DNA from: Lacticaseibacillus camelliae DSM 22697 = JCM 13995
GTDB lineage: Bacteria; Bacillota; Bacilli; Lactobacillales; Lactobacillaceae
NCBI RefSeq assembly: GCF_001311195.1
Contig: NZ_BBAJ01000014.1
Span: forward strand, 1 to 44,022
DNA length: 44,022 bases
Reading direction: 5' to 3'
Each line of letters begins with the position of its first letter. Positions within the stretch are counted from its first letter, which is position 1. Positions 2,488 through 16,355 of the stretch are shown here, in pieces. Both the position numbers and the translations under genes were made by a program. The notes under the pieces were generated by a model. That model did not search any database and had not been told where the DNA came from. It was given only the letters and a program-made list of their open reading frames with translations.

Positions 2488-2505
2488 TTCTGGGTGGTCA
2501 GGGGA
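2488..2505. other. attL core, left attachment site
   Basis: TTCTGGGTGGTCAGGGGA is identical to 16246-16263, where it forms the 3' end of tRNA-Lys (T-arm and acceptor strand). The flanking bases differ on both sides. The integrase gene begins about 100 bp inside. Confidence 0.85.
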
Positions 2506-2513
2506 AACGTAAC

Positions 2514-2529
2514 TGTTTCACATGAAACG
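2514..2529. promoter_or_regulatory. parS-like palindrome
   Basis: TGTTTCACATGAAACG matches 14 of 16 bases of the conserved parS site TGTTTCACGTGAAACA bound by ParB. It lies 8 bp inside the left end of the island and about 26 kb from oriC. Genuine parS sites cluster near oriC, but this one carries a change in the central CG, which usually lowers ParB binding. Confidence 0.3.
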
Positions 2530-2577
2530 CCTTAACCATGCACCCTAGAGCTGTTACCAACCAGCCTTAAAACTCCC

Positions 2578-2599
2578 GTGGTTTTCTCTGTGGTTTTCT
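2578..2599. repeat. Integrase arm-type repeats, left end
   Basis: Two copies of GTGGTTTTCT (2578-2587 and 2590-2599) lie between attL and the integrase stop. The same pair occurs in the same orientation near attR (16128-16137 and 16139-16148). Paired repeats at both ends are typical of integrase N-terminal arm-binding sites. Confidence 0.65.
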
Positions 2600-2602
2600 A
2601 AT

Positions 2603-3759
2603 TCAATTTTGCATATATTTGGCAAGTGCAGCAGTGGCCTCCGATTCTTGTTTCGCGCTGACATGAGCATACACGCCAAGCGTAATAGTCGGATCAGTGT
2701 GCCCGACCAACTTCTGTACCGAAGTGACAGGAACGCCGGCAATCAACAAGTTTGATATAAAACTGTGCCGAAACCCGTGGATAGTGATCCTTGGGGTGAG
2801 GTCATTATCATCTTGAATTTTATGCAGACGCTTTGAGGGCGTGTTCAATGACTGATAACCGTTTTTAGTATTGGTAAACAACAACTGGTCAGGCCCAATA
2901 GTATTGATGCCCAGTCTTAAGAACGATTTCTGCTGAATTCTGCGCCATCGCTTCAAGTACGCAATCGTTTGGTTGTCTACCGGAATTGTACGCCGCCCCG
3001 CTCGCGTCTTTGGCGCCTGAACTATTTGCCGTCCCTTATCGCCTTGCGTCAGTGTCTTGTTGACCTTCACGCTGTTGTCTTTGAAACTGACATCGTTCCA
3101 AGTCAACGCTAGTAACTCACCACGTCGAACACCGGTATAGGCTAATACCCTAAACATGACGAAAATGTCGAAGTGAGCTGCTTGGTCAATGCAAGAAAAG
3201 AAATGATTCATCTGTTCCTTAGTCCAGAAGTTCTCAGGCTCATCACCCGCTAGATCGTCATGGTGCGGTAGCACAACGGCTTTGGCTGGATTCTTGTCCA
3301 TGTACCCTTGCCGAACTGCATAGTCCATAACCGATGAAACATAGTTATACCAACGCTTATAGTTCGCTGACGTGAACTCGAACCACTGTTTGACAGCCTT
3401 CTGAACGTCCTTAGTGGTTATAGTGGCGATCCGCTTATCACCAAATGCCGGTAGAATATGGTTGTCAAACATGCCAGCCGTTCGGGCCCACGTAGATTCT
3501 CTTACCGTATTAATATAGTTTCCATACCACTCCTCATATACATCCCGAAAGAACACGGGTGTTGGCTTTTCTTCTTCTAAGTCACCGTTGCTGATTGCTA
3601 GTTCAAGTCTAGCTGCTGCAACAGTGGCTTCTCTTTTTGTCTTGAACCTCGCCGCACCTTGTACTTCTTGTGGCCAGTCTGTGGATCATTACCAGCAAAG
3701 ACCTGAACGCGCCAGAACTCTTTGCCGTCTTTCGTTGCGTACTTTTTAATTGATGCCAT
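2603..3759 (-). CDS. int: Tyrosine-family site-specific integrase (frameshifted)
   Basis: Catalyses insertion and excision of the island at tRNA-Lys. ATG at 3759 has AGGAGA upstream. The N-terminus (MASIKKYATKDGKEFWRVQV) is an AP2-like arm-binding domain. The frame breaks near 3650 (one base lost in a CGG/AGG context) and continues as FKTKREATVAAARLELAISN. Next come a SAM-like core-binding domain and the catalytic domain with Arg in YTGVRRGEL, HxxR in HGFRHS, His in LVGHTD and the nucleophile Tyr in GVYAHVS. The length, about 385 residues, is normal for integrases of Gram-positive phages and PICIs. It reads away from the repressor, toward attL. Confidence 0.93.
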
Positions 3760-3775
3760 ATTCTTCTCCTATCCG

Positions 3776-3792
3776 TCACGCTGGGCAGGCGG
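3776..3792 (+). repeat. 17-bp direct repeat, copy 1
   Basis: TCACGCTGGGCAGGCGG occurs here, just upstream of the integrase start, and again exactly at 4890-4906, just after the excisionase-like gene. The two copies bracket the repressor/excisionase switch. Confidence 0.7.
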
Positions 3793-3876
3793 TGTTAGAT
3801 TGGAGAGTTTTACTCAAATTCGAGTAAAAGGTGGCGGCCGAGTTATCGGCCACGATAACTACGAATTGGTTATAAA

Positions 3877-4488
3877 TTATTCCTCCGGAGGATCTGGTTC
3901 TTTGTCGAGTTTTTCCAAATATTTTTGAGCGACGTCCCAGCCCTTTCGATCGGAAAGCCTCATGAACTCTAATACTTGTTTTGGAAGAACGTCGTACGGT
4001 TCTTCATAATCCAAAGAATCGACTATTTGCTGCTTAACGTTTTCTCGCTTCTTTCTCTCTTTAGAGTATTCATTAAGCATTTTATACTCAGACGAAGCAT
4101 ATCTAACTAATCCATCTACCTCGTCAAGAAGATTTTTATATTGACCATCGGTGAACAAATCTAAATGATTTAACAGCCATAGTGACAGTTCTAGAACAGT
4201 TTCTTTCGACAAATTATCATAATAAATCTTCTTATCGTGAAACTTTGTTAGCAAATCTATTACATCTTCAGTTGAGGAAAACGAATAGTCTCGTTTATCA
4301 GTATGCATTAATAAATAGTCTAACGAGACATTAAAAAAATCAGCAATTTCTTCCCATAATCCAAGTTGAGGGTTTCTTTTTCCTGTTTCGTATTGGCTTA
4401 AAGTGTTGTCTCGAACGTTAAGAATTTTCCCCAATTGTTTAAGCGTCAATCCCTTTTCATTACGTAAAAGTGCAAGCCTATTTTCCAC
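3877..4488 (-). CDS. XRE-family repressor (CI/Stl-like)
   Basis: GTG start at 4488 with GAAGG upstream; a longer ORF begins at 4521 but lacks a good ribosome site. The N-terminal 65 residues are a Cro/CI helix-turn-helix (ALLRNEKGLTLKQLGKILNV, then DNTLSQYETGKRNPQ). The C-terminal two-thirds is helical and charged and shows no peptidase S24 Ser-Lys motif. So I expect no RecA-driven self-cleavage. In PICIs such repressors (Stl type) are released by binding a helper-phage protein. Divergent from the excisionase-like gene, with three operator-like palindromes between them. Confidence 0.85.
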   Translation of the reverse strand: MENRLALLRNEKGLTLKQLGKILNVRDNTLSQYETGKRNPQLGLWEEIADFFNVSLDYLLMHTDKRDYSFSSTEDVIDLLTKFHDKKIYYDNLSKETVLELSLWLLNHLDLFTDGQYKNLLDEVDGLVRYASSEYKMLNEYSKERKKRENVKQQIVDSLDYEEPYDVLPKQVLEFMRLSDRKGWDVAQKYLEKLDKEPDPPEE

Positions 4489-4527
4489 GAATTCACCTTC
4501 TTTCAAAGTTGATAATAGCACATTGAC

Positions 4528-4591
4528 TCACAGCATGTGATTTCATTTGACATTCACGATATGTGAGTTTATGATATTCTCATATTGTGAG
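4528..4591. promoter_or_regulatory. Divergent promoter with three phased operators
   Basis: Rightward promoter: TTGACA (4547-4552), 17-bp spacer, TATGAT (4570-4575). Leftward: an extended -10 (TGCTATTAT) near 4512-4520. Three palindromes, TCACAGCATGTGA (4528-4540), TCACGATATGTGA (4554-4566) and CTCATATTGTGAG (4579-4591), have centres about 25-26 bp apart. The middle one lies inside the rightward promoter and the left one near the leftward promoter. This is the arrangement of a lysogeny-type switch controlled by the repressor. Confidence 0.8.
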
Positions 4592-4610
4592 TGAAAGGGG
4601 GCGAATTCAA

Positions 4611-4889
4611 ATGGCTTCAATGAAAGCAGAACTATTGTTGTCCGAGGACTTCGACAAGCAGCTACAAGGCCGTATTCATCAGGAAGTGATCCAAGCGGTT
4701 AGCGAGCTTGCACCACGGCATGAAGAATCCAAAAAGTTGAACATCGGACAAGCAGCAGTTTATGCCGGTGTTGCTCGTAACACACTGTTGTCTTGGACTA
4801 GAAAAGGTTTGCCGATGCAAGTGGTTGGTGGCGTTAAGCGGATCAATACCGTAGACATCGACAACTACATGAAGAACAACGGCAAATAA
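4611..4889 (+). CDS. Helix-turn-helix excisionase/AlpA-like protein
   Basis: First rightward gene. ATG 4611 has AAAGGGGG about 8-10 nt upstream; an upstream in-frame GTG at 4587 falls within operator 3 and is less likely. The product is 92 residues. Its C-terminal half is a MerR/Xis-type winged helix-turn-helix: LNIGQAAVYAGVARNTLLSW, then RKGLPMQVVGGVKRINTVD. The N-terminal half is a helical segment. By position and fold it is an excision factor or AlpA-type activator of the island. Confidence 0.8.
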   Translation: MASMKAELLLSEDFDKQLQGRIHQEVIQAVSELAPRHEESKKLNIGQAAVYAGVARNTLLSWTRKGLPMQVVGGVKRINTVDIDNYMKNNGK

Positions 4890-4906
4890 TCACGCTGGGC
4901 AGGCGG
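4890..4906 (+). repeat. 17-bp direct repeat, copy 2
   Basis: Exact copy of TCACGCTGGGCAGGCGG at 3776-3792, starting one base after the stop of the excisionase-like gene. The orientation is the same. Confidence 0.7.
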
Positions 4907-4959
4907 CAAATTGTAAGCAACTTATGACAGGCGCAGGAGCGTCAGGAAGGCACAACATC

Positions 4960-5181
4960 ATGAAGCTATTCAGTAAAGAAGAGATGGCACTAGACCGCGA
5001 ACTCGGAGACTTGATGGACGACATTAACCTCAACATTCTGGCCATTACAGAAGACAGCAATGTCACGGTTGGCGGTAAGTATGTCCCCAACAGTGAGCTG
5101 GCAATCACGGCTGCAAAAGAGCTGCTGCGGGTATCGGAGATCCTAAAGCTGTATGAAAACGAGGAGGCCGCTGATGATTAA
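4960..5181 (+). CDS. Small acidic helical protein, unknown
   Basis: ATG 4960 has AGGAAGG 8-9 nt upstream. An alternative ATG at 4924 has no ribosome site. The 73-residue product is acidic and helical (EEMALDRELGDLMDDINLNI, later ELLRVSEILKLYENEEAADD). No family recognised. Its stop overlaps the start of the next ORF (TGATGATTAA), so the two are translationally coupled. Likely an early island gene. Confidence 0.6.
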   Translation: MKLFSKEEMALDRELGDLMDDINLNILAITEDSNVTVGGKYVPNSELAITAAKELLRVSEILKLYENEEAADD

Positions 5182-5308
5182 TCTCATTGCGTGGCTACTA
5201 AGCCACCCGCTCACCGTCCCGGCACTCTGCATGGCATTCCTGATTGGGGCTGTCTGCGGTGCTTACGTTCAATTCTCGGAGGACGATCGTCATGCCGAAA
5301 ATGGTTAG
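5174..5308 (+). CDS. Single-pass membrane miniprotein (44 aa)
   Basis: ATG 5174 lies inside the last codons of the previous gene, with GAGGAGG upstream. One transmembrane helix (LTVPALCMAFLIGAVCGAYV) is followed by a charged tail (FSEDDRHAENG). Overlaps the next ORF (ATG 5292). Small membrane ORFs of this type are common in early regions of lactobacillal phages; role unknown. Confidence 0.55.
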   Translation: MINLIAWLLSHPLTVPALCMAFLIGAVCGAYVQFSEDDRHAENG

Positions 5309-5483
5309 CACAAGGTTCGGATTTCAGTGGCGAGACTACGTGCAAGCCGATGCCGAGTGTGATCGGTACTGGCAAGCGCAAAAAGCCGAAAAGCGCTCAC
5401 TGATTGAAGCCACAAAAAAATCGCCAAGAGCGGCAACTCAAGGCGAGAAGAAGACAAGCGAAAAGATCTATATTCCTTTTTAG
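5292..5483 (+). CDS. Small basic protein, unknown
   Basis: ATG 5292 has GGAGGACG about 5-9 nt upstream. It begins MPKMVSTRFGFQWRDYVQAD, then a helical stretch rich in Gln, Lys and Glu. It contains a run of seven A at about 5414-5420. If one A is an error, the C-terminus becomes KNRQERQLKARRRQAKRS, which continues the helix better than the frame as given. That would also run it in frame into the next gene, so the end is uncertain. Confidence 0.5.
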   Translation: MPKMVSTRFGFQWRDYVQADAECDRYWQAQKAEKRSLIEATKKSPRAATQGEKKTSEKIYIPF

Positions 5484-5529
5484 CTTGCCTCTAGTTAGAT
5501 GCTTTTGTCAAGGAAAATGGAGGCAATTT

Positions 5530-5806
5530 ATGATGGATATTAATGATTTGGGAGAAGTTAACGTAATTCTAACAGACGCAAGCAACATTGGCCTAGCACT
5601 ATCTGACAAAATTCAGGCTCTGTATGATTTATCAAGTGGCGGTATTAACAAAAAAAGATGAAGGACGCGTGCTCTTAGAAGTGACGCGTTCAAGTGGTAC
5701 GTACGAAGCTTTACTTAGCTGCATGATGGACAAGATCATCGACAGCCGTCGGTTGCTAGAAGCTGGTATGAAGCAAGGTGGTGATCCCGATGCCGACAAT
5801 GCTTGA
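5530..5806 (+). CDS. Unknown island protein, frameshifted
   Basis: Two ATG codons (5530, 5533) follow TGGAGGCAATTT. The frame as given stops at 5661 after GGINKKR. A run of seven A at about 5651-5657 explains this: with six A the protein continues as DEGRVLLEVTRSSGTYEAL to 5806 and has about 91 residues. It is helical; no family recognised. Its last codons overlap the start of the Prim-Pol gene (ATG 5790), so it belongs to the replication operon. Confidence 0.6.
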
Positions 5807-6612
5807 GATGGCCCTCTCATACCAGCAACACGCTTTGCCGTCTATCCCCTAGCACCAGGCACCAGAACACCGCTCAAAGGCTCACACGGGTATAAGGATG
5901 CTACCACGGACCTAAGCAAGCCGAGGCATGGTGGGGTGAACACCCGGACTACAATATCGGCCTAGGACTTGACGGCATGCTGGTATTCGACATTGACATG
6001 GGCCACAAGAGTGCCGCTGATGGCAATGAATCGCTGGCAAAACTAAGCGCTGATGGGCGCGCTGGCCAGATACCGTCTACCTATATTGAAACTACCCCAA
6101 ACGGTGGACTTCATATGTTCTTCACCTATCCCAAGAATATCAAGCTAACTAGTCGGGCCGATCTGTTCTCCAAGTCTGGAGAGAAAACCGGTCTCGATTA
6201 CACGGCGCTGGGCGTGCCGGTTTTTCCTAGCATTCGCGAGAACGGCATGTATCAACCACTTAAAGGGCACAAGATCACCAAGCTATCACCCGCGCCTCAG
6301 TGGTTACTTACTGAGATTCAGCGTGTCAACCATCCGAACCCGAATCTGGGTTCCGCTGCTTACACAGGAAAGCGCTGGTCCGGTCGCCTGCTCGACGAGA
6401 TGGTAGCCGGTACTGGAAATGGAAACCGCAACGACTTCTTAACTAGGATTGCTGGCAAGCTGTTCTTTACGGGTGCAGACCCAGTAACAGTGTATAACTT
6501 GCTGTTTACCACTAACGACAGCTACTTAGACAGCCCACTACCAGAAGCCGAAGTGAACAAGATTTTCAAGTCAGTATTGAAAGCCGAAGAGAGGAGGCGT
6601 GCCGTTGGTTAA
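5790..6612 (+). CDS. Bifunctional DNA primase/polymerase (Prim-Pol), frameshifted
   Basis: Makes primers for island replication. The start MPTMLEMALSYQQH lies at 5790. Two frame breaks follow: a lost G near 5833 (reading restored as GFAVYPLAPGTRTPLKGSHG) and a lost C near 5911 (restored as DPKQAEAWWGEHPDYNIGLG). The archaeo-eukaryotic primase core is then clear: LDGMLVFDIDMG with the metal-binding Asp-x-Asp, and TYIETTPNGGLHMFF with the catalytic His. The C-terminus (GNGNRNDFLTRIAGKLF) is the usual PriCT-like region. About 274 residues. Overlaps the helicase gene; together they are the SaPI-type replicon pair. Confidence 0.85.
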
Positions 6613-8029
6613 AACAATGCCAGAAGATATTAAAGAGGAAGCTGACAAAGTGGTCAGTGTCGACTTTTCGGGCAAAGAGAAGTGGCGAGAAGAACTCAAG
6701 GTTGACGGTAACGGTGGGATCAAGAAAGATTCAGTCGTCAACCTACAACTGCTAATAGAACATGATCCTAGCTTTGCCGGAGTGATTGCATGGGACGACT
6801 TCTCAGAGTTACTCATCAAGACCAAAGGCGCAAAAGGATTACCAATCCGCAAAGGATTCTGGACCGATGAAGACGATGCTATCGTCCGCTCATACATTGA
6901 ACGCAAGCACAATATATTGTTCAGTAAGCAAAACGAACAAGACGCGATGGTCAACATTGGCAAAGAGCAGTCGATCAACCCGGTTAAAGACTGGATCGAA
7001 ACGGAACAATGGGACGGCACCCCGAGAGCTGAACGGTACTTCATCGACTACCTAGGTGCCGAGGACAGCGAATATACACGCATCGTGACGCGCAAGTGGT
7101 TAGCTGGTGCAGTGAAACGAGTCTACAAGCCCGGTTGCAAGTTTGAGCTCGTTCCAATTCTCGAAGGCAAACAAGGGCTAGGCAAGAGCACCGCTGCTCG
7201 TAACTTATTCCCGGAGAAGTTCAGCGATTCACTGAAATCGATGGGCAAGACCGATGAGGATTACAAGAAACTACAAGGCAACTGGGTCATGGAACTCGGT
7301 GAGCTTTCCGCTATGAAAAAGACCGAGATTGAATCAGCTAAGAGTTTCATTAGCGCCCAGTCTGATTCATATCGCGGCAGTTATAGCCATTACGTATACC
7401 CACACTTACGCAAGTGTGTATTCATTGGTAGCACTAATCAACAGGACTATTTGAAAGACGCCACTGGTGAACGTCGTTTCTTCCCTATCAGATGTGGCGT
7501 TACAAAGCCCACAAAGGTGGTGTGGCGCAATGAAGAAAGCGTGCCGAAGATCAACCACGATGTACATCAGGTACTGGCAGAGGTCAAAACATGGGTGGAT
7601 GCAGGTGAGAGTGTCTTTGCTGACGATAAGCTGATGCAACTGGCGAAACCATATCAACAGGAAGCAGAGACCGTGGACCCGATGAAAGAGGCCATTGAGG
7701 ACTTCCTCAACATGAAAGTACCGTCGAATTGGGAAAAGCTGTCATTGAGCCTAAAAGCCAGCTTCTTTCACACGCATATTGACCATAACGGCGATGTTGC
7801 TACTTGGTTACAACAGCACTTAGACGCCGGTGAATTACAACCACTGCAACAAACCACAACAAGAGAAATCATGGAAGTGGTGTTTGACAAGTCAGTGGAT
7901 CGTTACCTGATGGGGCGTACAAACTCTGACGCAAAACGGATCAAGCTCATTATGGACAACATGGAAGGCTGGCAAGCGCAAAGGTTACGCATCCACGGAA
8001 ACCGGCCACATGGGTATGTGCGGATATAG
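6605..8029 (+). CDS. VirE/VapE-family replicative helicase
   Basis: P-loop ATPase used by PICIs and some phages to open the origin. The TTG at 6605 lies 8 nt after GGAGG; GTG 6599 and ATG 6617 are the alternatives. Walker A is EGKQGLGKST and a Walker B-like acidic site is GNWVMELGEL. The sensor region is KCVFIGSTNQQDYLKDATGERRFF with the conserved STN and GxRRFFP motifs. The C-terminal 130 residues carry a winged-helix-like part (MGRTNSDAKRIKLIMDN) that probably binds the iterons just downstream. About 475 residues and intact. Confidence 0.9.
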   Translation: MVKTMPEDIKEEADKVVSVDFSGKEKWREELKVDGNGGIKKDSVVNLQLLIEHDPSFAGVIAWDDFSELLIKTKGAKGLPIRKGFWTDEDDAIVRSYIERKHNILFSKQNEQDAMVNIGKEQSINPVKDWIETEQWDGTPRAERYFIDYLGAEDSEYTRIVTRKWLAGAVKRVYKPGCKFELVPILEGKQGLGKSTAARNLFPEKFSDSLKSMGKTDEDYKKLQGNWVMELGELSAMKKTEIESAKSFISAQSDSYRGSYSHYVYPHLRKCVFIGSTNQQDYLKDATGERRFFPIRCGVTKPTKVVWRNEESVPKINHDVHQVLAEVKTWVDAGESVFADDKLMQLAKPYQQEAETVDPMKEAIEDFLNMKVPSNWEKLSLSLKASFFHTHIDHNGDVATWLQQHLDAGELQPLQQTTTREIMEVVFDKSVDRYLMGRTNSDAKRIKLIMDNMEGWQAQRLRIHGNRPHGYVRI

Positions 8030-8045
8030 TTTTCTAGTTTCTAAC

Positions 8046-8246
8046 GTGGTCCACGTGGTCCACGTGGTCAATCCCAGGCACAGCAATGGATTGCGAGTTT
8101 TGCTACGTGGGCTATACGTGGTCCATGCGTGGTCCACCATTTACAGCTAATAAACTGGACCGGGTATGGACCGGGTATGGACCACGTAAGCTGTAACTCA
8201 AAACGCCGATATACCGGCGTTTGCCCGGGTGGACCACGTGGACCAC
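8046..8246. other. Iteron-type replication origin of the island
   Basis: The 260-bp gap after the helicase holds two opposed sets of short repeats. Left: GTGGTCCAC at 8046-8054, 8055-8063, 8129-8137, with variants at 8064 and 8118. Right: the complement-type TGGACCAC/TGGACCGG at 8156, 8167, 8178, 8229 and 8238. Between them is an AT-rich core (about 8138-8156) bordered by the inverted repeat TTACAGCT (8141-8148) / AGCTGTAA (8189-8196). A hairpin AACGCCG/CGGCGTT lies near 8200-8222. From family knowledge: SaPI origins also sit beside the helicase gene, with iterons flanking an AT-rich segment. Confidence 0.85.
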
Positions 8247-8291
8247 GTAAAAGACAAACAAGTTTAAAACTATACGCGAGGAGAAATTAAA

Positions 8292-8633
8292 ATGACAAAA
8301 ACAGCATATCGCAGAGCAGCACTCTTAGACGTTAACCACGATCGGGACAAGTGGACTGAACTCGGGGCGCTTGTGAAGGAACACTACGTAGTGCGCAGCA
8401 TGACACCAAAAGATTGGTTCATCATTGTTAAGCAACGTGAAGGCTATGAAATCGAAGTATATCCAACGTTTGAAATATCAGATGGTTTTCAATTCTCACA
8501 CGTTAACCTATTGACACGATCTTCATATGGAAGCATTAGCCATATTGCATACCATGAACTTTGTTTCTCAGCAAGTGACACCATTAGTTCAATTGAACGC
8601 ATGATTGATCTTGTCAAGGATAAGAGATATTAG
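8292..8633 (+). CDS. Unknown island protein (113 aa)
   Basis: ATG 8292 has GAGGAG 8 nt upstream. A soluble mixed alpha/beta protein without signal or membrane segment; notable parts are MTPKDWFIIVKQREGYEIEV and a Cys/Ser-rich end. I recognise no family. It is the first gene after the origin and precedes the head-joining gene by 13 bp. By position it could be a packaging or helper-interaction factor, or simply an accessory gene. Confidence 0.6.
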   Translation: MTKTAYRRAALLDVNHDRDKWTELGALVKEHYVVRSMTPKDWFIIVKQREGYEIEVYPTFEISDGFQFSHVNLLTRSSYGSISHIAYHELCFSASDTISSIERMIDLVKDKRY

Positions 8634-8646
8634 GAGCGTTAATCAC

Positions 8647-8982
8647 ATGAAGAACTATTCAATTGCCCGCCTGAACAAGGTGGCTGAAATCGGTAAGACA
8701 GTTAACCACAGGACTGGCGCAGGTATTAACATCTCTACATTTGAGCCGACTGGAACCCTGTTCTATGGATCATATAACCGCACCGTTACACAGACCTACC
8801 AGATCACTGGCACAGACTTAGAGGACACCATCGCCATCGTGGTACGTCACACTGACGCGCTAGACGACAGCATGATGATAAAGCTGAACAGCGCACTGTA
8901 CACAATTAAGTCTATTGCCTATGACGATGATCCGAACGCGTTCGATATTGTGACGCTCAAGAAGACAACCAAAGGAGCTTAG
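8647..8982 (+). CDS. Phage head-tail joining protein (SPP1 gp16/gp17-like)
   Basis: ATG 8647 has AGGAGCG upstream. The 111-residue protein has the beta-rich pattern of the Phage_H_T_join family: LNKVAEIGKTVNHRTGAG, GTLFYGSYNRTVTQTY, DTIAIVVRHTDALDDSMMIK and ALYTIKSIAYDDDPNAFDIV. In phages such proteins close the head and dock the tail. Here it lies upstream of the HNH and terminase genes and not after the capsid, an order known from cf-PICI-type elements. It would be the interface that a helper tail must recognise. Confidence 0.75.
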   Translation: MKNYSIARLNKVAEIGKTVNHRTGAGINISTFEPTGTLFYGSYNRTVTQTYQITGTDLEDTIAIVVRHTDALDDSMMIKLNSALYTIKSIAYDDDPNAFDIVTLKKTTKGA

Positions 8983-8986
8983 AACT

Positions 8987-9184
8987 ATGAAAGAATTTGA
9001 AGTAGCAGGAACAGAGAAAGAGGTCAACCGCATGCTGACAGCATTCTTTGCGATTCATTCGGTAGAGGTCAAAAGTATTCAGGTATATCAGGAGCCAGCA
9101 AATAAACTTCTAGAAATGGAACACCACAAGCTAGTAGTCAGCGTCTACTATGTCGACCAGCAACAAGCAGGCGTATTGGCATGA
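8987..9184 (+). CDS. Small unknown protein (65 aa)
   Basis: Starts 4 bp after the joining-protein stop (AAAGGAG upstream) and overlaps the HNH gene by 4 bp (ATGA), so it sits within the packaging operon. The sequence is short alpha/beta (MKEFEVAGTEKEVNRMLTAF, then a strand VVSVYYVDQQ). No family recognised. Confidence 0.6.
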   Translation: MKEFEVAGTEKEVNRMLTAFFAIHSVEVKSIQVYQEPANKLLEMEHHKLVVSVYYVDQQQAGVLA

Positions 9185-9618: not shown

Positions 9619-9662
9619 AAATCAGTGATTACCGTAATTAATTATGTAAACTAGAAAATTCG

Positions 9663-9671
9663 TGTTATAAT
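9663..9671 (+). promoter_or_regulatory. Extended -10 promoter before terS
   Basis: TGTTATAAT (TGn plus a perfect TATAAT at 9666-9671) lies 49 bp before the terS start in an AT-rich gap. No good -35 is seen, which is usual for extended -10 promoters. It could drive the packaging and head genes. Confidence 0.6.
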
Positions 9672-9719
9672 TAGATTAGATAAGTCTGATCCAAATTATA
9701 AAGAAAGGACGCGATAGCA

Positions 9720-10190
9720 ATGGGCGCACCGCTTAAATCCATTACCCAAATGCGTGGCACGATGAGCAAGAAGAAGCTCGCCGATCGGCGCGACATGGAA
9801 GAATCATTATTTACCTATCAAGAATTAGTTGAGCAGCCCCCTGCATGGCTTGATGACTATGCCGTGACCGAGTGGCAACGTATTGTGCCGTTACTCAAGA
9901 AAGACATTCCAGTGAGCGAACTGGACGCTGCCCTGATTGCCAGTCACTGCCAAGCCTATTCTGACATTCAGAAAGCGGCCGAGCTTGTAAAAGAGCAAGG
10001 CATGACGGTTGAAACCACTGATAGCGTGAAAGCCAATCCGGCCGTGAAGATGAAGCTAGATGCCACGAACCAGATGATCCGCATCGATGACTTGCTGGGT
10101 CTATCCGTCTACAGCCGGGCTAAGTTAGCAGTGAAGAGCGAGACTAAGAAGAAGCCTGACGACCCGTTCGCGGAGTTGATAGCCCAATGA
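9720..10190 (+). CDS. terS: Terminase small subunit, P27 type
   Basis: DNA-recognition subunit for packaging. ATG 9720 has AAAGGACG upstream. The sequence has the P27 family pattern: AWLDDYAVTEWQRIVPLLKK, LDAALIASHCQAYSDIQKAAELV and NPAVKMKLDATNQMIRIDDLLGL. It is 156 residues long and intact. Its stop overlaps the terL start by 4 bp. Having its own TerS lets the island package itself independently of the helper terminase, unlike classical SaPIs. Confidence 0.9.
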   Translation: MGAPLKSITQMRGTMSKKKLADRRDMEESLFTYQELVEQPPAWLDDYAVTEWQRIVPLLKKDIPVSELDAALIASHCQAYSDIQKAAELVKEQGMTVETTDSVKANPAVKMKLDATNQMIRIDDLLGLSVYSRAKLAVKSETKKKPDDPFAELIAQ

Positions 10191-11889
10191 ACTATGCGAC
10201 TGAATATACCGACAAGGTAATAAGCGGCGACATCGTGGCCGGCAAGAAAATCAAGCAAGCTGCAAGACGTTATCGGCGAGACCTAAAAGCCAGCAAGCGC
10301 AAGAAGAACCCATGGCCGTATTACTTCGATGAGGACTTTGCCAACAAAGCCATTGAATTCATCGAACTGATGCCGGCACGTGATGGGTCACCACTCAAGT
10401 TAGAGCTGTTTCAGAAGTGGTTGATTTCAGAGCTGTTCGGCTGGCGTGATAAGGAAACCGGCAACCGCCGGTATGATCGAGCCTACATCAGCATGGCACG
10501 CAAGAATGGTAAGAGCTTCCTGATGGCTGATCTAGGTGCGTTGTATCTCCTCAGGGAGAACAAGCCAGCCATGAACCGAGAGATCGTCTATACAGCCAAC
10601 AGCAACGCTCAAGCACACTTAGCATTCGATATGTTGTCTAGCGGCTTACGTCAAGTTTGGAAAGTTTCTACCTCTGTGCGAGAACGTTTGAAGATTAACC
10701 GCAACGAGATCATTGACTTGCCGAGCAACAGCCGAGCCGTGCCGCTTGCGTCTGATCTGCACAGCCTAGATGGCTATCAAAGTGACTTGGCTATTATTGA
10801 TGAATTCGCCTTAGCTCGTACCGATGAGATTCTACGAACACTCAAATCTGGCCAGATCAACAGTGATAACAGTTACTAGCCGTCATCTCAACGACGGGGC
10901 CAGACATGAACGGCCCAATGTATAAGGAATACAAATTCGTTTCCAAAATCTTAACCGGTCGCGAACAAGCTGATCGGTATTTTATTGCCATTTTTGAGCA
11001 GGATAGCAAAGACGAAGCCTTTTCACCAGAGACTTGGGAGAAGTCCAATCCACTACTGGCCAATGCTGAAAGAGCAAGGACAATGCGGCCTAGCCTGCAA
11101 GCAGACGTGGACCTGTCAGCCAAGCAAGGAACATTGCGACCGATCCTCGTCAAGAATTTCAACATGTGGCAATCAGCTAGAGCAGACAGCTACATCAGTC
11201 TGGACGACTGGGAGAAAGCTACTATCGAGCCGCCAGACACCAAAGGAAAAGACGTGTATATCGGGCTGGACCTCTCCAAGTCTAGTGACCTGACCAGCAT
11301 CTCATGGCTAGTTCCAGAAGATGGCTACCTGTATGCTGACAGCCATTCATTCGTGGGGACTAAGTACGGACTGGAAGAGAAAATCAAACGTGACGGGTTC
11401 GATTACATCAGTGGCGCCAGTCGCGGCGAGTGCAGCATTACCAAACTCGACAGCGGCATGATCGACTATGACGAGGTGCTACGCTTCATTCTCGACATAA
11501 TCGAGCGGAACCACTGGAGTGTGCGCGCCATCTGTTACGATCCGTGGTCATTCGGCTACCTACTGCCAGAATTTGAGAAACGAGACTTGCCAATGGTTGA
11601 GGTACGCCAAGGCCAGCGCACGCTGTCAATACCGACTGTGCGGTTCCGTGATGATCTATTTAACGGCCTCCTAAAGCACGCAGACAACCAACTACTGGCC
11701 TATGCGGTGAACAACGCCATTCTAAAGTATGACGCCAACAACAACCCGATCATCGACAAGGCACACAATGCGACACGGATCGACCCCATAGCGGCTTTGA
11801 TGAATGCCTACACCATTGCCATGGATCAAAACAAAGAAAGCGAGGTAGCGGACAATGACTTTTATTCGGGCGATGACTTCAGCTTTTAA
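10187..11889 (+). CDS. terL: Terminase large subunit (frameshifted)
   Basis: ATP-driven packaging motor and nuclease. Walker A is ARKNGKS (about residue 105) and Walker B is LAIIDEFALA. The frame as given stops at 10878. One T is missing near 10873 (AGTTACTAG for AGTTTACTAG), and reading then continues as LLAVISTTGPDMNGPMYKEY. The nuclease domain begins at VYIGLDLSKSSDLTSISW, with a conserved Asp, and a later Asp lies in ICYDPWS. About 567 residues, normal for this family. TerS-TerL-portal order is conserved. Confidence 0.92.
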
Positions 11890-12034
11890 CGCACAGACCG
11901 TGCTATTACTGCTAGGCATGATCTGTATCGTCACTGGTATCTGGTGGCTGTTCGGGTGTGGCGTTGGCATGGTAGCAATCGGCGCAGCCCTGATCGCCAT
12001 CGCAGTCATCATCAACTTCAACAAAGGGAGGTGA
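11855..12034 (+). CDS. Small two-helix membrane protein (DUF1056-like)
   Basis: ATG 11855 overlaps the end of terL. The 59-residue product has two hydrophobic helices (TVLLLLGMICIVTGIWWLF and GVGMVAIGAALIAIAVIINF) and a short basic tail. It lies between terL and portal, where lactobacillal and lactococcal phages carry a small DUF1056 membrane protein. I base the name on this position and on general pattern only. The gene also supplies the GGGAGG ribosome site of the portal gene. Confidence 0.6.
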   Translation: MTFIRAMTSAFNAQTVLLLLGMICIVTGIWWLFGCGVGMVAIGAALIAIAVIINFNKGR

Positions 12035-12038
12035 AACA

Positions 12039-13217
12039 ATGAGCTTTTTCACGAATGACACAACACAACCTCGCGATGACAACAGCGAACCGTTCCTAGA
12101 TGCCCTTGTCAGCATGACGAGCAACGACAGCGGCGTTTATGTGGGCGTTCATGCTTTGCGAAACTCGGACGTATTTACGGCGGTGCGCGTGATTGCCAGC
12201 GACCTCGCGACTAACCCGATTGAATACAATGACAAGCGTATCAGCGGGTTACTCAACAAGGCCCCTAACGATCACATGACAGCATGGTCGTTCAAGTTTG
12301 CCCTAGTGGCCAACATGCTGCTGAATGGTAATAGCTTCGCACGCGTTACTAAGAACCCTAGCGGACAAGTCACCGGCTTCGAGTTTGTTCCAAACAGCCA
12401 AATGGTGGTCAAGCAAGACGATACGACCGGCATTATCAGCTACACGTATACGCCCCAGAATGGTCGCTCACAGCGTTTAAGCGCCAACGAGGTATTGCAC
12501 TTCAAGTGCTTCACACAAGACGGATACAAGGGCCTATCGCCTCTTTACAGCTTGCATGATGAAGTTCGGGTGCAACATGCGGGACACAAGCTACTCAAAG
12601 GCTTCTTCGATACCGGTGTCCAAGGGACTGGCATACTCAAGGTGAACAAGTCCCAGCTCGATGCCAAGGCCAAGGAGAATATCCGATCAAAGTTTGAGAC
12701 TGCTAACAGCGGTGACAATGCCCTCAAGACCATCATTCTCGACAATGATATGGACTACAAGCAACTCGAAGTTAATACTGACGTGCTGAATCTAGTCAAT
12801 TCTAGCGATTGGACAACGAAACAGATTGCCAAAGCGTTCGGCTTACCACTAGATCGATTAGGTATTGAGAGCGAGCACTCTAACGCCGTGCAATCAAACC
12901 TAGTCTATCTGCAAAACACGCTGGTGCAATACTTCACCTGCTTCACTAGTGAGATGGACGCCAAGCTGTCAACGGGTGACAACCGGTTTAGTTTTAACAC
13001 AGACAAGCTGTTCAGTGCTGACCCCACGACGATGCAAGAACTAGCCATTAAGGGGCTGCAAGGCGGACTGCTGACCACCAATGAAGCACGCGCTAAGTTG
13101 AACCTGCCATCAATTCCCGGTGGAGATGAGATCATGGCCAGCCTGAACTATACGCCGCTAAGCAACCTTGTCACTTATCAAGATAAACAGAAAGGAAGTG
13201 CGTCAAATGAACAATGA
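12039..13217 (+). CDS. HK97-family portal protein
   Basis: Forms the dodecameric vertex ring through which DNA enters. ATG 12039 has AAAGGGAGG upstream. Family features: N-terminal ALRNSDVFTAVRVIASDLAT, then NPIEYND, LLNGNSFARVTKNPSG, EVLHFKCFTQDGYKGLSPL, the stem region TKQIAKAFGLPLDRLGIE and a C-terminal EARAKLNLPSIPGGDEI. It is 392 residues long and intact. Its end overlaps the protease start (ATG 13207) by 11 bp. Confidence 0.93.
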   Translation: MSFFTNDTTQPRDDNSEPFLDALVSMTSNDSGVYVGVHALRNSDVFTAVRVIASDLATNPIEYNDKRISGLLNKAPNDHMTAWSFKFALVANMLLNGNSFARVTKNPSGQVTGFEFVPNSQMVVKQDDTTGIISYTYTPQNGRSQRLSANEVLHFKCFTQDGYKGLSPLYSLHDEVRVQHAGHKLLKGFFDTGVQGTGILKVNKSQLDAKAKENIRSKFETANSGDNALKTIILDNDMDYKQLEVNTDVLNLVNSSDWTTKQIAKAFGLPLDRLGIESEHSNAVQSNLVYLQNTLVQYFTCFTSEMDAKLSTGDNRFSFNTDKLFSADPTTMQELAIKGLQGGLLTTNEARAKLNLPSIPGGDEIMASLNYTPLSNLVTYQDKQKGSASNEQ

Positions 13218-13845
13218 TGACGTAGAAAAGCGCCTGAATCCTGACGCTGATCTAACTGCCGCTGATCCTACCACAGCAGACGACAGCCAAGACCAAAAGG
13301 ATCCAAGCACCGCACCAAATGATACACCCAAGAAGCTCACCGGCTATGCCGTAGTCTTCAATAGTCCAAGCAAGGATCTAGGTGGCTTTAAGGAAGTCGT
13401 CGATCCTAGTGCCTTCGATGGCGTGGATCTGTCAGACGTCTATCTGGTATCTGATCACGATTTTAGCAAGGTCCTCGCCAGCACTAAAGCCGGCACCCTA
13501 CAACTTGACGTAGACGACAAGGGACTTCACTTTGAAGCTACTCTCCCCGACACCACCACCGCCAACGATGCGTACACGAACGTCCAAGCTGGAAACCTGT
13601 CAGCCATGAGCTTCACTTTCAACGCAGCACCCGATGGTGACACGTTCACTAAGGACGACAGTGGCCAAGTGATCCGTACCATCAAGCAAGTCAAGAGCCT
13701 GTTTGACGTCTCACTGGTAGCTATTCCAGCGTATGACGATACCAACGTCCAAGTGGACAAACGCAGCTACACCGAGTGGCTGAAAACTAATACTGAACAA
13801 CCAGAAAAAGGAGATAAAACCATGACTGAAAAAAACCATTATTGA
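13207..13845 (+). CDS. HK97-family prohead protease
   Basis: Matures the procapsid. ATG 13207 has AAAGGAAG upstream; the longer ORF from 13168 runs inside the portal gene. A low-complexity acidic N-terminus (about 45 residues) precedes the protease fold: LTGYAVVFNSPSKDLGGFKE, catalytic His in LVSDHDFSKVL, Ser in NLSAMSFTF and a final strand DVSLVAIPAYDDTNVQV. The frame as given ends at 13845 because of a seven-A run at about 13828-13834. With six A the gene reads straight into the capsid gene, which is in the same frame (see the capsid entry). Confidence 0.88.
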   Translation: MNNDDVEKRLNPDADLTAADPTTADDSQDQKDPSTAPNDTPKKLTGYAVVFNSPSKDLGGFKEVVDPSAFDGVDLSDVYLVSDHDFSKVLASTKAGTLQLDVDDKGLHFEATLPDTTTANDAYTNVQAGNLSAMSFTFNAAPDGDTFTKDDSGQVIRTIKQVKSLFDVSLVAIPAYDDTNVQVDKRSYTEWLKTNTEQPEKGDKTMTEKNHY

Positions 13846-14749
13846 TAATGAAGAATACACCGCATCGCGGGCCTACGAAGACTACATTCGTAGCATGGGT
13901 GAGCAACGTGACGGCCTGACCACAACCACCGCCGGTGCTGTCGTCCCTCAAGAAGTCATTGAAGACGTCTGGAACCTCAAGAAATCCGACTATGACTTGG
14001 CTAAATACGTGACGGTAAAGCAAGTTGGTACCCCAGTCGGCACCTACCCGATCGCCCTCACCAACAACGGCGTACTGGCCACCAAGGAAGAACTCGCCGA
14101 CGTTCCGGAGATCGATGCGACCCTGTTCCGCGGTGTCGATTACAAAGTCGCGACCCGTGCTGGCAAGATCTATCTGTCTAATGAACTGGTAGAAGACAGT
14201 GAAGTTGATATTGTTGCCGAGGTTAAGAATCAACTCAAGAAGCTGGTACAAAACACGGACAATAGCAACATTATCAGCGTTCTGACTGGCAAGACGGGCA
14301 CCAACGATAACTTCAAGCACATCACCGGTACCGGCTTAGACGACATCAAGCAGACGTTCAACATCGAACTGGACCCGGCGCTGTCCCTGTCTGTGATCGT
14401 TAATCAGGACGCCTACAACTACCTTGACACCCTCAAGGACAGCGAAGGTCGCTACCTGCTTCAACCCTCTATCACGGCACCATCTGGCAAGCAGCTGTTC
14501 GGTGCACCGGTGATCGTGATTGCTAACAAAGTATTGCCGACTGATAAGGCGGGCACCTATCGGATCATCATCGGAGACTTTTCTCAAGCAATTTTCTTAG
14601 CCCAGAAGAACGAGGTCAACACCCAGTGGGAACGGTTCGACAGCTACAGCCAAGGGCTGGCCGTGGTCATTCGCAACGACTATGAAGTGGTTGATCCAGA
14701 CGCTGCTCGAATTGTTGACATCACACCGGTAACCAAGCCAGCAGCTTAA
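13822..14749 (+). CDS. HK97-fold major capsid protein
   Basis: ATG 13822 has AAAGGAG upstream. As given, an extra A stops it after MTEKNHY; with six A it reads MTEKTIIDNEEYTASRAYED and continues. The HK97-fold parts are clear: TTTTAGAVVPQEVIEDVWNL, VGTYPIALTNNGVLATKEEL, IYLSNELVEDSEVDIVAEVK (E-loop and spine) and QLFGAPVIVIANKVLP (P-domain). About 308 residues, short for the family: there is no N-terminal delta (scaffold) domain of about 100 residues. Forms the island's own, probably small, capsid. Confidence 0.9.
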
Positions 14750-14761
14750 TGAAACAGTCTG

Positions 14762-14790
14762 GGGTGTACCTTGGGGTACGCCCTATTTTT
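14762..14790 (+). terminator. Hairpin terminator or attenuator after capsid gene
   Basis: GGGTGTACC (14762-14770) pairs with GGTACGCCC (14775-14783), one G-T pair, followed by TATTTTTATA. It separates capsid from the connector gene and would lower downstream expression. Confidence 0.75.
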
Positions 14791-14807
14791 ATATAGGAGA
14801 TGAGCAC

Positions 14808-15101
14808 ATGACTGTCACTACTGATAACATTAAAAATAGCCTGCGTGTGCAGACTGATACTGATGACACACTCATTCAAAACTACATTACAGCCGCTCAA
14901 GACTACGTCCACAATGCGGTAGACAGCACCGCAGACATTGCCAAGCTGGAAGAATATTCACAGTTCGACGTCGCCGTGGCGATGATGACCGAATTCTGGT
15001 ATCAAAACCGGGGTGAGGTCAGCACGGCGAGTCAAGAACCACCGTATTCAGTGGTCAGCATGATCCAGCAGCTACGTGGCTTGTTCGCAGCAGACGTATA
15101 G
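14808..15101 (+). CDS. Head-tail connector, gp6-like adaptor
   Basis: ATG 14808 has AGGAGATGAGC upstream. The 97-residue protein is all-helical and matches the phage gp6-like (HK97 gp6) adaptor pattern: TDNIKNSLRVQTDTDDTLIQ, NYITAAQDYVHNAVDS, FDVAVAMMTEFWYQNRG and SVVSMIQQLRGLF. It attaches below the portal. It is the last structural gene: no tail gene follows, only non-coding sequence and minus-strand genes. Confidence 0.82.
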   Translation: MTVTTDNIKNSLRVQTDTDDTLIQNYITAAQDYVHNAVDSTADIAKLEEYSQFDVAVAMMTEFWYQNRGEVSTASQEPPYSVVSMIQQLRGLFAADV

Positions 15102-15121
15102 TATCAATAACCAATAGATTA

Positions 15122-15130
15122 TGATATAAT
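15122..15130 (+). promoter_or_regulatory. Extended -10 promoter for the candidate ncRNA
   Basis: TGATATAAT (TGn plus TATAAT at 15125-15130) lies just after the connector gene. A start near 15137 would open the structured region that ends in the terminator at 15323-15346. Confidence 0.6.
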
Positions 15131-15136
15131 TAAGAC

Positions 15137-15346
15137 AGTCCTAGGCGATAAGCGGGTAGATCCGTTTTAACCGACGCACGGCATAGCTAACCGGTGGCGC
15201 ATTTTACAGACCGTGGCTCATCATGCGAAGCGTTTGTACTCCGTAGCCACAAAAATAGACAACTTCACCGGCAGATCGTTCTGCTTTGGAAGCTGACTAC
15301 GTGACTTGCCGTTTTCATCTAGCGGGCAGAAATGCCCGTTTTTTTT
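15137..15346 (+). ncRNA. Candidate structured non-coding RNA, about 210 nt
   Basis: There is no ORF, but promoter and terminator bound a dense set of hairpins. Examples are CGGGTAGATCCG; CGC-CGG/CCG-GCG around 15173-15204; GTGGCT (near 15213) with AGCCAC (near 15243); and CTTC-GCAGA/TCTGC-GAAG around 15265-15292. The end is a perfect terminator, CGGGCA (15323-15328) with TGCCCG (15333-15338) and eight T. Large structured RNAs (such as ROOL and GOLLD) are known from lactobacillal prophages, but this is shorter and I see no specific match to them. The function is unknown. Confidence 0.5.
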
Positions 15347-15560
15347 GTGTGCTGATAATCCGTTATGGGCAAGAGCCATCAGGATTTAAGGTCAATCTAA
15401 TTGACCTGGAACAATGGAGTTCTGGAAAAGTCCTAAGTGGCTCAAATCCACTTTGAATACGGCGCTGACAGACGCGTTCTGACACAATTTCAACGACTGT
15501 TCCTTGAGGTACGGTCGTGGCTGCACTAGACAACGAATATCAGAACCAGTTACTGGCACA
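15347..15560. other. Non-coding stretch with hairpins
   Basis: No credible ORF on either strand. Short perfect hairpins are present, such as GGTCAAT/ATTGACC (about 15390-15406) and AAGTGG/CCACTT (about 15435-15453). It may be a second RNA or part of a longer transcript of the candidate ncRNA. Confidence 0.35.
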
Positions 15561-15585
15561 AAAATAGCCGTCCATGATGGACGGC
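15561..15585 (-). terminator. Minus-strand terminator of the 46-aa gene
   Basis: On the minus strand GCCGTCC and GGACGGC (15579-15585 with 15567-15573) form a 7-bp stem followed by TATTTTT. It lies 12 bp after the stop of the minus-strand miniprotein. Confidence 0.8.
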
Positions 15586-15596
15586 CAGAACACCTA

Positions 15597-15737
15597 TCAA
15601 TCGTGAATCGAATCTTGCAATTTATCTCCAGCCTTGTCGATCCCCTTAGCTGCCCAAATTGTACCAGCTACCAAGACACCACCAACAAGAAAAGTGCTTG
15701 CTACCATGAACTTAAAAACCGATTTTAATGCGTCCAT
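15597..15737 (-). CDS. Single-pass membrane miniprotein (46 aa)
   Basis: ATG 15737 has GGGAGG 7-8 nt upstream. The N-terminal part MDALKSVFKFMVASTFLVGG leads into a hydrophobic helix (VLVAGTIWAA), then an amphipathic charged tail (KGIDKAGDKLQDSIHD). It follows the GlsB-like gene by 14 bp on the same strand, so the two form an operon in the accessory region of the island. No family recognised; the tail resembles YtxH-like or other small stress membrane proteins only loosely. Confidence 0.7.
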   Translation of the reverse strand: MDALKSVFKFMVASTFLVGGVLVAGTIWAAKGIDKAGDKLQDSIHD

Positions 15738-15751
15738 AGTCCGACCTCCCG

Positions 15752-15999
15752 TCAGTCTTTAGATCTGCCAACAAAGAAAGATACAACAGCGACAATAATA
15801 ACTGCTCCGACTATCGATGGAATTATGGCCATTCCGGCCAACTGAGGACCCAGTGCCCAAGGAGTGCTTCCCCTAAAGAGGAACCGACAAGGCCAGCAAC
15901 AATATTTGCAATCCAGCCCATAGACTTGCCCTTGCTTGTAATCGCACCTGCAATAGCGCCGATTATTGCGCCAACAATTAAAGCCCAAAGAAAATGCAT
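15752..15999 (-). CDS. GlsB/YeaQ/YmgE-family membrane protein (frameshifted)
   Basis: ATG 15999 has AGGAGG upstream. The start MHFLWALIVGAIIGAIAGAI and the following TSKGKSMGWIANIVAGLVGS are hallmarks of the transglycosylase-associated (GlsB/YeaQ) family of three-helix stress membrane proteins of about 82 residues. The frame breaks near 15860, where one base is lost in the GCACTGGG context. It resumes as GPQLAGMAIIPSIVGAVIIV and ends FFVGRSKD. It is cargo of the island; family members respond to cell-envelope stress. The motif GxxG-rich helices support the family call despite the break. Confidence 0.85.
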
Positions 16000-16070
16000 G
16001 ATAATTCCTCCTTTTTGGTTATATTGTCTCTATAGACGAACACAGTATAACATGCAGTAGCAACAATAGA

Positions 16071-16099
16071 TAATAAAATAGCCGCCCATAATGGACGGC
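16071..16099 (-). terminator. Second minus-strand terminator, sequence-related to that at 15561
   Basis: On the minus strand GGCCGTCC..GGGCGGC followed by TATTTTATTA. It shares the words GGCCGTCCAT and CGGCTATTTT with the terminator at 15561-15585, 510 bp away, so it is a duplicated terminator flanking the two-gene cargo operon. Confidence 0.6.
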
Positions 16100-16127
16100 C
16101 ACCGCCTGCCAAGCAGAAATGAACTCC

Positions 16128-16148
16128 GTGGTTTTCTCGTGGTTTTCT
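16128..16148. repeat. Integrase arm-type repeats, right end
   Basis: Two copies of GTGGTTTTCT (16128-16137, 16139-16148) lie 98 bp inside attR. They match the pair at 2578-2599 in sequence and orientation; the spacing between the copies is 1 bp here and 2 bp there. Confidence 0.65.
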
Positions 16149-16184
16149 TTTATTGATAATCAATGACAGCCAATAACAATCTGG

Positions 16185-16235
16185 TTAAAATAAAAACCAG
16201 TAACGACGCTGTTTTGACAACGTTTGCTACTGGTT
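16185..16235 (-). terminator. Terminator after tRNA-Lys
   Basis: AACCAGTA and TACTGGTT (16228-16235 with 16195-16202) form a stem on the minus strand with an inner AACG/CGTT pair, followed by TTTATTTT. It belongs to the island and replaces the original downstream end of the tRNA transcript. Confidence 0.7.
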
Positions 16236-16245
16236 GATAACGCTA

Positions 16246-16263
16246 TTCTGGGTGGTCAGGGGA
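16246..16263. other. attR core, right attachment site
   Basis: TTCTGGGTGGTCAGGGGA repeats attL (2488-2505). Fifteen of its bases are the 3' end of tRNA-Lys, so integration leaves the tRNA intact. Confidence 0.88.
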
Positions 16264-16321
16264 TCGAACCCTGGACCCACGGATTAAGAGTCCGTTGCTC
16301 TGCCAGCTGAGCTAACCACCC
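16249..16321 (-). tRNA. tRNA-Lys (anticodon CTT)
   Basis: The 73-nt cloverleaf has a 7-bp acceptor (GGGTGGT with ACCACCC), D-stem GCTC/GAGC, anticodon stem ACGGA/TCCGT around loop CTCTTAA (anticodon CTT), T-arm CAGGG-TTCGATC-CCCTG and discriminator A. CCA is not encoded. The 3' third doubles as the island's attachment site. Confidence 0.95.
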
Positions 16322-16355
16322 ATGAATCTGGATGTCATCACTTGACGACTTAAAT

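Follow-up and report, generated by a model that had tools for sequence, protein, structure and literature searches.

Capsid-forming phage-inducible chromosomal islands (cf-PICIs), for which Alqurainy et al. (2023) is said to be the founding paper, carry an integrase with att sites in the chromosome and a primase and replication module of their own. As defined in PMC10690885 and PMC11389934, they also make their own capsid, protease, portal, connectors, terminases and HNH protein and take tails from a helper phage, and one has been called in the lactic acid bacterium Pseudolactococcus laudensis (PMC13335696). The phage-inducible chromosomal island-like element (PLE) satellites of Vibrio cholerae are described as lowering the capsid expression of their helper and producing abundant noncoding RNA (PMC7567579). 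We analyzed an element that measures 13.8 kb from att to att (positions 2488 to 16263) in a contig of Lacticaseibacillus camelliae; this whole stretch of 44,022 nucleotides is called the window here. On its gene content the island is best filed as a cf-PICI, and we consider it likely that it is an integrated, head-making, tail-less satellite of the PICI kind that additionally encodes a small RNA directed against helper head genes.

Like the described cf-PICIs, the island has its own terminases, HNH protein, portal, protease, capsid and connectors and no tails, and the original prediction of a cf-PICI plan agrees with the definition given in PMC10690885. An integrase and chromosomal att sites are present, as are a replication module (PrimPol and VapE), TerS, TerL and HNH (the TerL frame is broken in this draft and intact in relatives), and portal, protease, capsid and connectors (the protease-capsid frame is broken in the same way and intact in relatives). 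Neither the island nor its relatives carry tail or lysis genes, and close full-length relatives with such genes, as expected for a defective prophage, were found neither in the phage collection nor in 397 Lactobacillaceae genomes. A protease-capsid fusion, a displaced head-closure protein Hc1 and a putative antisense RNA distinguish the island from published cf-PICIs, but by description only, and these may not be true differences. By anatomy it appears to be a new member of the capsid-forming satellite kind, and the putative anti-helper RNA would be a new feature if expressed; a literature search of titles and abstracts returned no report of a satellite RNA against helper capsid genes.

The candidate RNA lies after the gene for the head-tail adaptor Ad1; it was passed over in the original prediction and may be what is most novel about the island. 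In the gap, a -10 box precedes a conserved segment, which gives way to a variable one that runs into an intrinsic terminator; this layout, in which the 5' domain and the terminator are fixed and the middle varies, looks like that of a small-RNA gene. All four features are on the plus strand. The extended -10 (TGATATAAT, 15122 to 15130) of the putative promoter was recognized in the sequence and is conserved in relatives of the window's class. The conserved 5' domain (15134 to 15212) is 93 to 98% identical across satellites with quite different middles. Within the variable arm (15213 to 15321), the stretch 15271 to 15320 (more weakly from 15251) matches the protease-capsid junction of ordinary phages as its reverse complement (E = 4e-11 for Lc-Nu), and the intrinsic terminator (15321 to 15347) is both predicted and conserved. 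In G019, a relative of the type of R23.1, the promoter reads TTGCCA-17-TATAAT, and R23.1 and JB1P3, two relatives on record as phages, agree as far as their sequence was seen. An exact 34-base piece of the 5' domain was present in 35 IMG/VR contigs, 34 of them with a satellite capsid; together with 15 other copies this gave 50 RNA genes, some perhaps from one strain under two names, with 27 distinct arms. The contig without the capsid, L198 (IMGVR_UViG_3300026368_000050, positions 1 to 14258), has a satellite-type integrase, PrimPol, VapE, Hc1 and an RNA with an Ad1-type arm and no match to the satellite portal, capsid or Ad1; it is perhaps a derivative without head genes that kept the RNA. 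A known RNA family was ruled out as the identity of the RNA, as no Rfam family reached its gathering score in 15134 to 15347.

The arms matched head genes of ordinary Lacticaseibacillus phages, and always in the antisense orientation. Against 50,697 phage records, the window RNA hit the 5' domain of R23.1 and JB1P3 and otherwise no phages but Lc-Nu and phiAT3, each under two accessions, and R9.3. A search of 30 genomes of the genus added eight sites that lie outside satellites, spread over seven genomes (E = 6e-14 to 1e-7; two in G004 and one each in G002, G007, G011, G012, G013 and G016), all antisense, seven at the capsid start and that of G011 at the protease 3' end. When the 27 arms were compared with 38 phage and prophage records, every one of the 205 hits at E ≤ 0.001 was antisense. 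Of the 27 arms, 26 were complementary to a head gene. A head gene could be identified in 33 records, of which 18 took part in these hits and 15 had none; the other five records were partial and lacked one, and two records (L032 and L116) represent one prophage. With eight more loci the hits numbered 301, of which 201 fell at the capsid start, 12 at the protease 3' end and 79 inside Ad1, all antisense, and 9 were left unplaced by the script; these 9, all in T25, lie just past the protease end in a stretch without a recognizable capsid gene. Four complete phage genomes gave no hit at E ≤ 0.001 beyond the capsid start or Ad1, and shuffled arms reached E < 0.001 in 1 of 1600 cases.

The sites differed between arm types. 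An arm of the type found in the relative pCF11 pairs with positions 4363 to 4449 of Lc-Nu, stopping 7 nt short of the capsid start (4456) and spanning its AGGAGG motif. The window's arm covers about -96 to -47 in Lc-Nu, reaching -24 in two prophages, and thus lies upstream of the pCF11-arm site. G028-type arms have an extra stretch over about -4 to +58 of the capsid start of JNU_P9, and R23.1-type arms pair over 32 nt inside Ad1 of R23.9, R18.1 and R3.1 and over 29 nt in Lrm1. The annotated Hc1 start of Lrm1 was ruled out as the target, because in Lrm1, in R23.9 and in five more records the site falls inside Ad1. When 11 versions of the arm were scored as duplexes, the top rank among 50 gene starts of Lc-Nu went to the capsid start for seven arms, the window's included, and the capsid start also came first in JNU_P9 for six, the window's not among them; the window arm gave no comparable outlier in JNU_P9, Lrm1 or R23.9. 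Eight arms compared with their own island or locus gave nothing better than E = 0.03 apart from the self match.

Satellites and arm-matched phages were also found together. The arm of R23.1 matches the co-induced phage R23.9, and satellites of the R23.1 type have a 12-nt cos end in common with R23.9 and Lrm1, both arm-matched phages. This 12-nt word was present in 21 of 24 elements with an Ad1-type arm (missing from L198, L219 and the 5.3-kb L223) and in none of 25 elements, some of them fragments, with an arm against the major capsid protein (MCP-type); the sharing among Ad1-arm elements is that of one lineage and counts as one observation. A satellite and an arm-matched prophage occur in the same genome in G002, G004, G007, G012 and G016. 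The arm of L203 best fits R9.3, AT3 and two prophages (92.5 to 93.8%, with Lc-Nu at 88.8%), and that of pCF11 best fits the G013 prophage and Lc-Nu (91 to 92%, with AT3 at 87.5%). All pCF11-like arms have in common a small difference from all phage leaders and therefore probably go back to one capture followed by change. These fits suggest that the arms may follow local helper alleles, which is part of the antisense-RNA reading proposed here.

These matches suggest how the satellite may obtain its tails. It encodes proteins for its own replication and packaging and for a head as far as the neck (Ad1 and Hc1), and its heads would be finished with helper tails. An RNA transcribed from the segment after Ad1 would pair through its variable arm with the late mRNA of the helper, at the protease-capsid junction in the window's class or inside Ad1 in the R23.1 class, and this pairing would lower the production of helper head parts. 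The satellite has a version of its own for each targeted part (capsid and Ad1), and its capsid, being fused to the protease, offers no separate start to block. The outcome would be that free helper tails are in excess and available to satellite heads. We lean toward the view that Lacticaseibacillus cf-satellites in general encode such a modular antisense RNA, silencing helper capsid or adaptor genes and freeing tails, with arms that track local helper alleles and some RNAs two-armed against two phage groups. The regulatory RNAs of the satellites P4 and phiR73 act on the satellite's own genes, unlike the RNA proposed here. They are similar to it in that a satellite RNA is complementary to gene leaders (PMC7567579). 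PLEs are similar in combining helper capsid reduction with noncoding RNA, and their reported behavior gives the selective logic of reducing helper capsid a precedent, but the antisense homology of the PLE RNA is to leaders of the PLE's own genes (PMC7567579), and PLEs hijack the coat proteins of the helper (PMC10945586).

Several observations weigh against the antisense RNA and its role in tail supply. The RNA is a candidate read from sequence, its fold stability is ordinary (z = -1.3), and the window-type promoter has a clear extended -10 only and was absent from the list of a strict promoter scan. In 397 genomes of the family, the first third of the window arm (about 35 nt) matched satellite loci only. 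The Ad1 match is short (32 nt, 87.5%) and, lying inside the gene, is not accounted for by a blocked translation start; across the whole phage collection the Ad1-type arm found only Lrm1, at E = 0.02, and R23.9 was not listed. Arms of one class share ancestry, which reduces the independent target relations to about three. The prophage loci used were mostly capsid-centered, and the agreement on head genes is thus partly by choice; this caveat is offset because the whole-collection searches (50,697 phages and 30 genus genomes), which with the four complete phages form the bias-free part of the arm matching, agree. Satellites of two other genera showed no antisense at a listed prophage capsid (21 and 50 genomes, contexts not checked singly), and one Lactiplantibacillus-type region had among phages only a short match to Paenibacillus and Cylindrospermopsis phages. 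The MCP-arm satellites tested had no cos end in common with their target phages. The draft genome of the window itself contained no arm target outside satellites, and a terminase search of it returned only the island's own TerL; a search of it for Dit gave no match but had no positive control and says nothing alone.

Several of these points would also be expected if the island were a capsid-forming satellite but what follows Ad1 were nothing more than a scrap of inverted phage head DNA with no role as an RNA. The ordinary fold would fit such a scrap, as would the MCP-class arms, which look descended from one capture. However, the conserved 5' domain and the terminator flank quite different arms, there are three target relations (capsid starts of the Lc-Nu type, capsid starts of the JNU_P9 type, and Ad1), all antisense and all in head genes, and the best-fitting phage alleles differ between satellites. 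We therefore regard an inert scrap as possible but doubtful. A functional RNA could also serve mainly as anti-phage defense, lowering helper yield rather than freeing tails. The same target evidence supports this role, and the two roles overlap, but the targets are parts that the satellite itself supplies, and the four complete phage genomes showed none outside the capsid start or Ad1; a mainly defensive RNA seems unlikely to us.

The tail-less plan of the island is shared by many relatives. The window capsid had matches in 161 of 397 Lactobacillaceae genomes, and at an identity of at least 50% there were 37 capsid places in 35 genomes, the window included, the next match among those listed being at 43%. 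In 33 of the 37 places the protease-capsid fusion is a single open frame of 490 to 538 amino acids (aa), the other four being the window, a truncated G004 copy and two G170 pieces. We mapped 35 satellite-type loci (L055 to L065 and L085 to L108) with satellite proteins and found a head module with one Hc1 in 28, located upstream of HNH in 22 and after Ad1 in 6; the remaining 7, in which Hc1 was not seen, are truncated or at contig edges. Thirty tail and lysis proteins of R23.9, Lc-Nu and JNU_P9 were then compared with the sequence downstream of the capsid in 30 loci with about 14 kb available and in two more with 5.9 and 9.8 kb. None of the 32 satellite loci was matched, up to 14 kb downstream of the capsid, whereas six of six control prophages each matched at least 10 of the 30 proteins, with tape-measure open reading frames (ORFs) beginning 2.7 to 4.2 kb downstream. 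Only two ORFs of at least 800 aa were present downstream in the 32 loci, one of 810 aa on the minus strand in G378 and one of 966 aa in G265; the latter was ruled out as a tape measure, being a sigma-54/PRD/PTS regulator. Nine further IMG/VR loci had no ORF of this length in about 10 kb downstream of the capsid.

The same loci have the boundaries of integrated elements. Of the 33 loci with sufficient sequence, 23 had a tRNA or tmRNA gene no more than 2.6 kb downstream, the integration sites being Lys, Ala, Gln, Glu, Arg and Ser tRNAs and the tmRNA. Att repeats of at least 13 bp, spaced 13.2 to 14.5 kb apart, were found in 17 of 20 loci tested (19 of the 35 satellite-type loci and the weaker relative L110) and in none of the other 3. 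The nearest tailed-phage capsids in the phage collection are those of Listeria phages (50% identity), and the single Listeria phage examined encodes its protease separately and carries a complete tail module. The recurring plan and the difference between satellite and control loci rule out a recent deletion from a full prophage, which the original prediction had set as its own refutation, and on this comparison the island is a member of a lineage and not a one-off deletion. L104 and L094 each have another integrase-like match after the satellite, suggesting neighboring or tandem elements, and L061 (G016:C1:675294-695136) is a broken remnant with split integrase and portal matches that still has the RNA gene and arm.

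Relatives have also been recovered as circles and from induced cultures. Two were deposited as circular 14-kb plasmids, pAF20 (NZ_CP094953) and pCF11 (NZ_CP094949), and the pAF20 circle has a single att core between the inner sides of the window's attR and attL, corresponding to a joined attP. Together with R23.1 (OP869847) and JB1P3 (PV668529) they resemble the island in gene plan and size (13.8 to 14.5 kb), and the capsids of R23.1 and JB1P3 are 92 to 94% identical to that of the window. pCF11 has Hc1 upstream of HNH and an MCP-type arm, as the window does, whereas R23.1, JB1P3 and pAF20 have an Ad1-type arm, pAF20 has Hc1 annotated after Ad1, and R23.1 and pCF11 match a tmRNA site. R23.1 was published in 2023 as an odd 14.5-kb phage (PMC10219966), and the lineage, predicted to be perhaps undescribed in this host group, is thus not wholly so. 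According to that paper, it came from polyethylene glycol-precipitated material of a mitomycin-treated culture of L. rhamnosus LMG 23277, with a coverage of 333x compared with 114x for R23.9, the 41.6-kb phage of that strain (Table 4), and its ends were set by PhageTerm where possible. The authors stated that R23.1 is without tail, holin and lysin genes and is present in 13 L. rhamnosus genomes, and considered it possible that the R23.1 and R23.9 contigs belong to one phage; this is at odds with R23.1 having an att, a terminase and a cos of its own. The words "satellite," "electron" and "DNase" are absent from the main text of PMC10219966, and with no DNase mentioned there the R23.1 DNA may have been free. 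Both records start right after AACGGTCGGCCT, which would fit cos-cut packaged DNA. The 23-kb plasmid L006 (NZ_CP102713, pLRDM054, positions 1 to 23208) has satellite genes, among them TerL, HNH and PrimPol, in repeated copies and looks like about 1.6 satellite units (a multimer) or an assembly joint, and the 13.6-kb PLE6 of L. casei BL23 (PMC9600169, Table 1) is by its size a possible satellite of the same kind.

Frame changes interrupt the integrase, PrimPol, TerL, protease-capsid and YeaQ-like miniprotein genes of the island. In the same contig the host genes dnaA, dnaN, gyrB and mnmG are likewise split across frames (Pfam; window 22260 to 36570) and mnmE is only partly open, and the assembly is a 161-contig draft, 84.5% complete and 5.9% contaminated. 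The breaks in the island are best read as draft errors, because the host genes are equally broken and intact relatives exist, and they therefore say little on the activity of the island; decay was ruled out on the same two grounds. Out-of-frame genes and a capsid of a phage family could suggest that the island is what remains of a prophage in decay, its tail and lysis genes lost, but with host genes of the contig equally broken, the tail-less plan recurring in many genera and relatives occurring as circular records and in induced material, this is highly improbable and largely refuted by the intact relatives.

The ends and the genes of the island could be placed precisely. An 18-bp repeat (TTCTGGGTGGTCAGGGGA) has identical copies at 2488 to 2505 (attL core) and 16246 to 16263 (attR core), which are the exact ends of the island, and the right copy forms the 3' end of the tRNA-Lys(ctt) gene (16248 to 16322, minus strand); dnaA, dnaN and gyrB lie at 28.9 to 36.6 kb of the window. 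The element was thus correctly predicted as a 13.8-kb integrated island at tRNA-Lys near oriC. Profile searches with Pfam and PHROGs recovered the integrase, a helix-turn-helix (HTH) repressor, Prim-Pol/PriCT, VapE/VirE, HNH, Terminase_4, the TerL ATPase and nuclease, portal, S78 protease, major head protein and Ad1. On the minus strand are the tyrosine integrase (2603 to 3759, in two frames, 2603 to 3556 and 3598 to 3759; PF00589, 2e-25; intact in JB1P3 and pAF20) and the HTH repressor-like protein (3877 to 4521; PF01381, 9e-15). The plus strand continues with a small HTH DNA-binding protein (4587 to 4889; phrog_15534, 9e-38), a conserved protein of no assigned function (4924 to 5181; phrog_21261, 5e-39), the PrimPol with a PriCT domain (5977 to 6612, its N-terminal part just upstream in other frames; PF09250, 4e-10, and PF08708, 7e-15) and the VapE/VirE-type helicase (6599 to 8029; PF05272, 3e-68), so that the replicon predicted for the island was recovered. 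Next to it, at 8037 to 8255, a repeat search found GTGGTCCAC-rich repeats that may be the replication origin; repeats had been expected at this place, but as iterons, and they are inverted repeats.

The head genes, also on the plus strand, begin with Hc1 (8605 to 8982; phrog_25, 1.5e-15) and the HNH endonuclease (9181 to 9618; PF01844, 1e-9), followed by the small (9720 to 10190; PF05119, 3e-23) and large (10187 to 11889, two frames, intact in relatives; PF03354, 6e-24, and PF20441, 5e-62) terminase subunits and a small membrane protein (11855 to 12034; phrog_502, 4e-9). Then come the portal (12039 to 13217; PF04860, 2e-71), the head protease and major capsid protein (13168 to 14749; fused in relatives and in two frames here, both halves matching phrog_2263) and Ad1 (14808 to 15101; phrog_40, 1e-26). 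The predicted terminase pair, HNH, portal, protease and capsid were all confirmed, and the two predicted connectors are Ad1 and Hc1, although Hc1 is upstream of HNH and not after Ad1. Between the end of Ad1 and attR, about 1.15 kb hold only the candidate RNA and, on the minus strand, two miniproteins, one of 46 aa (15597 to 15737; read from the sequence, with a 46-aa hypothetical relative in pCF11 and pAF20) and one of the GlsB/YeaQ/YmgE membrane type (15752 to 15999, two frames here; phrog_15180, 2e-15; relative annotated in pAF20). No tail or lysis gene was recognized within the island in the ORF list, Pfam or PHROGs, as predicted. Near-identical hairpin-like repeats at 15561 to 15587 and 16075 to 16101 surround the two-miniprotein block and are perhaps terminators.

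These results have consequences for how such genomes are read. Pseudogene calls from this draft need care, given the split mnmG, dnaA, dnaN and gyrB, and the R23.1 DNA already in the literature can be read anew as that of a satellite. More generally, a head-making satellite faces the question of how it obtains tails while helper heads compete for them. An antisense RNA against helper head genes, if true, would be a direct answer and would parallel, through a different mechanism, the lowering of helper capsid expression reported for PLEs (PMC7567579). Readable arms may then predict helper-satellite pairs from sequence, and the hosts are common food and probiotic bacteria in which genomes with both a satellite and a matched prophage exist.

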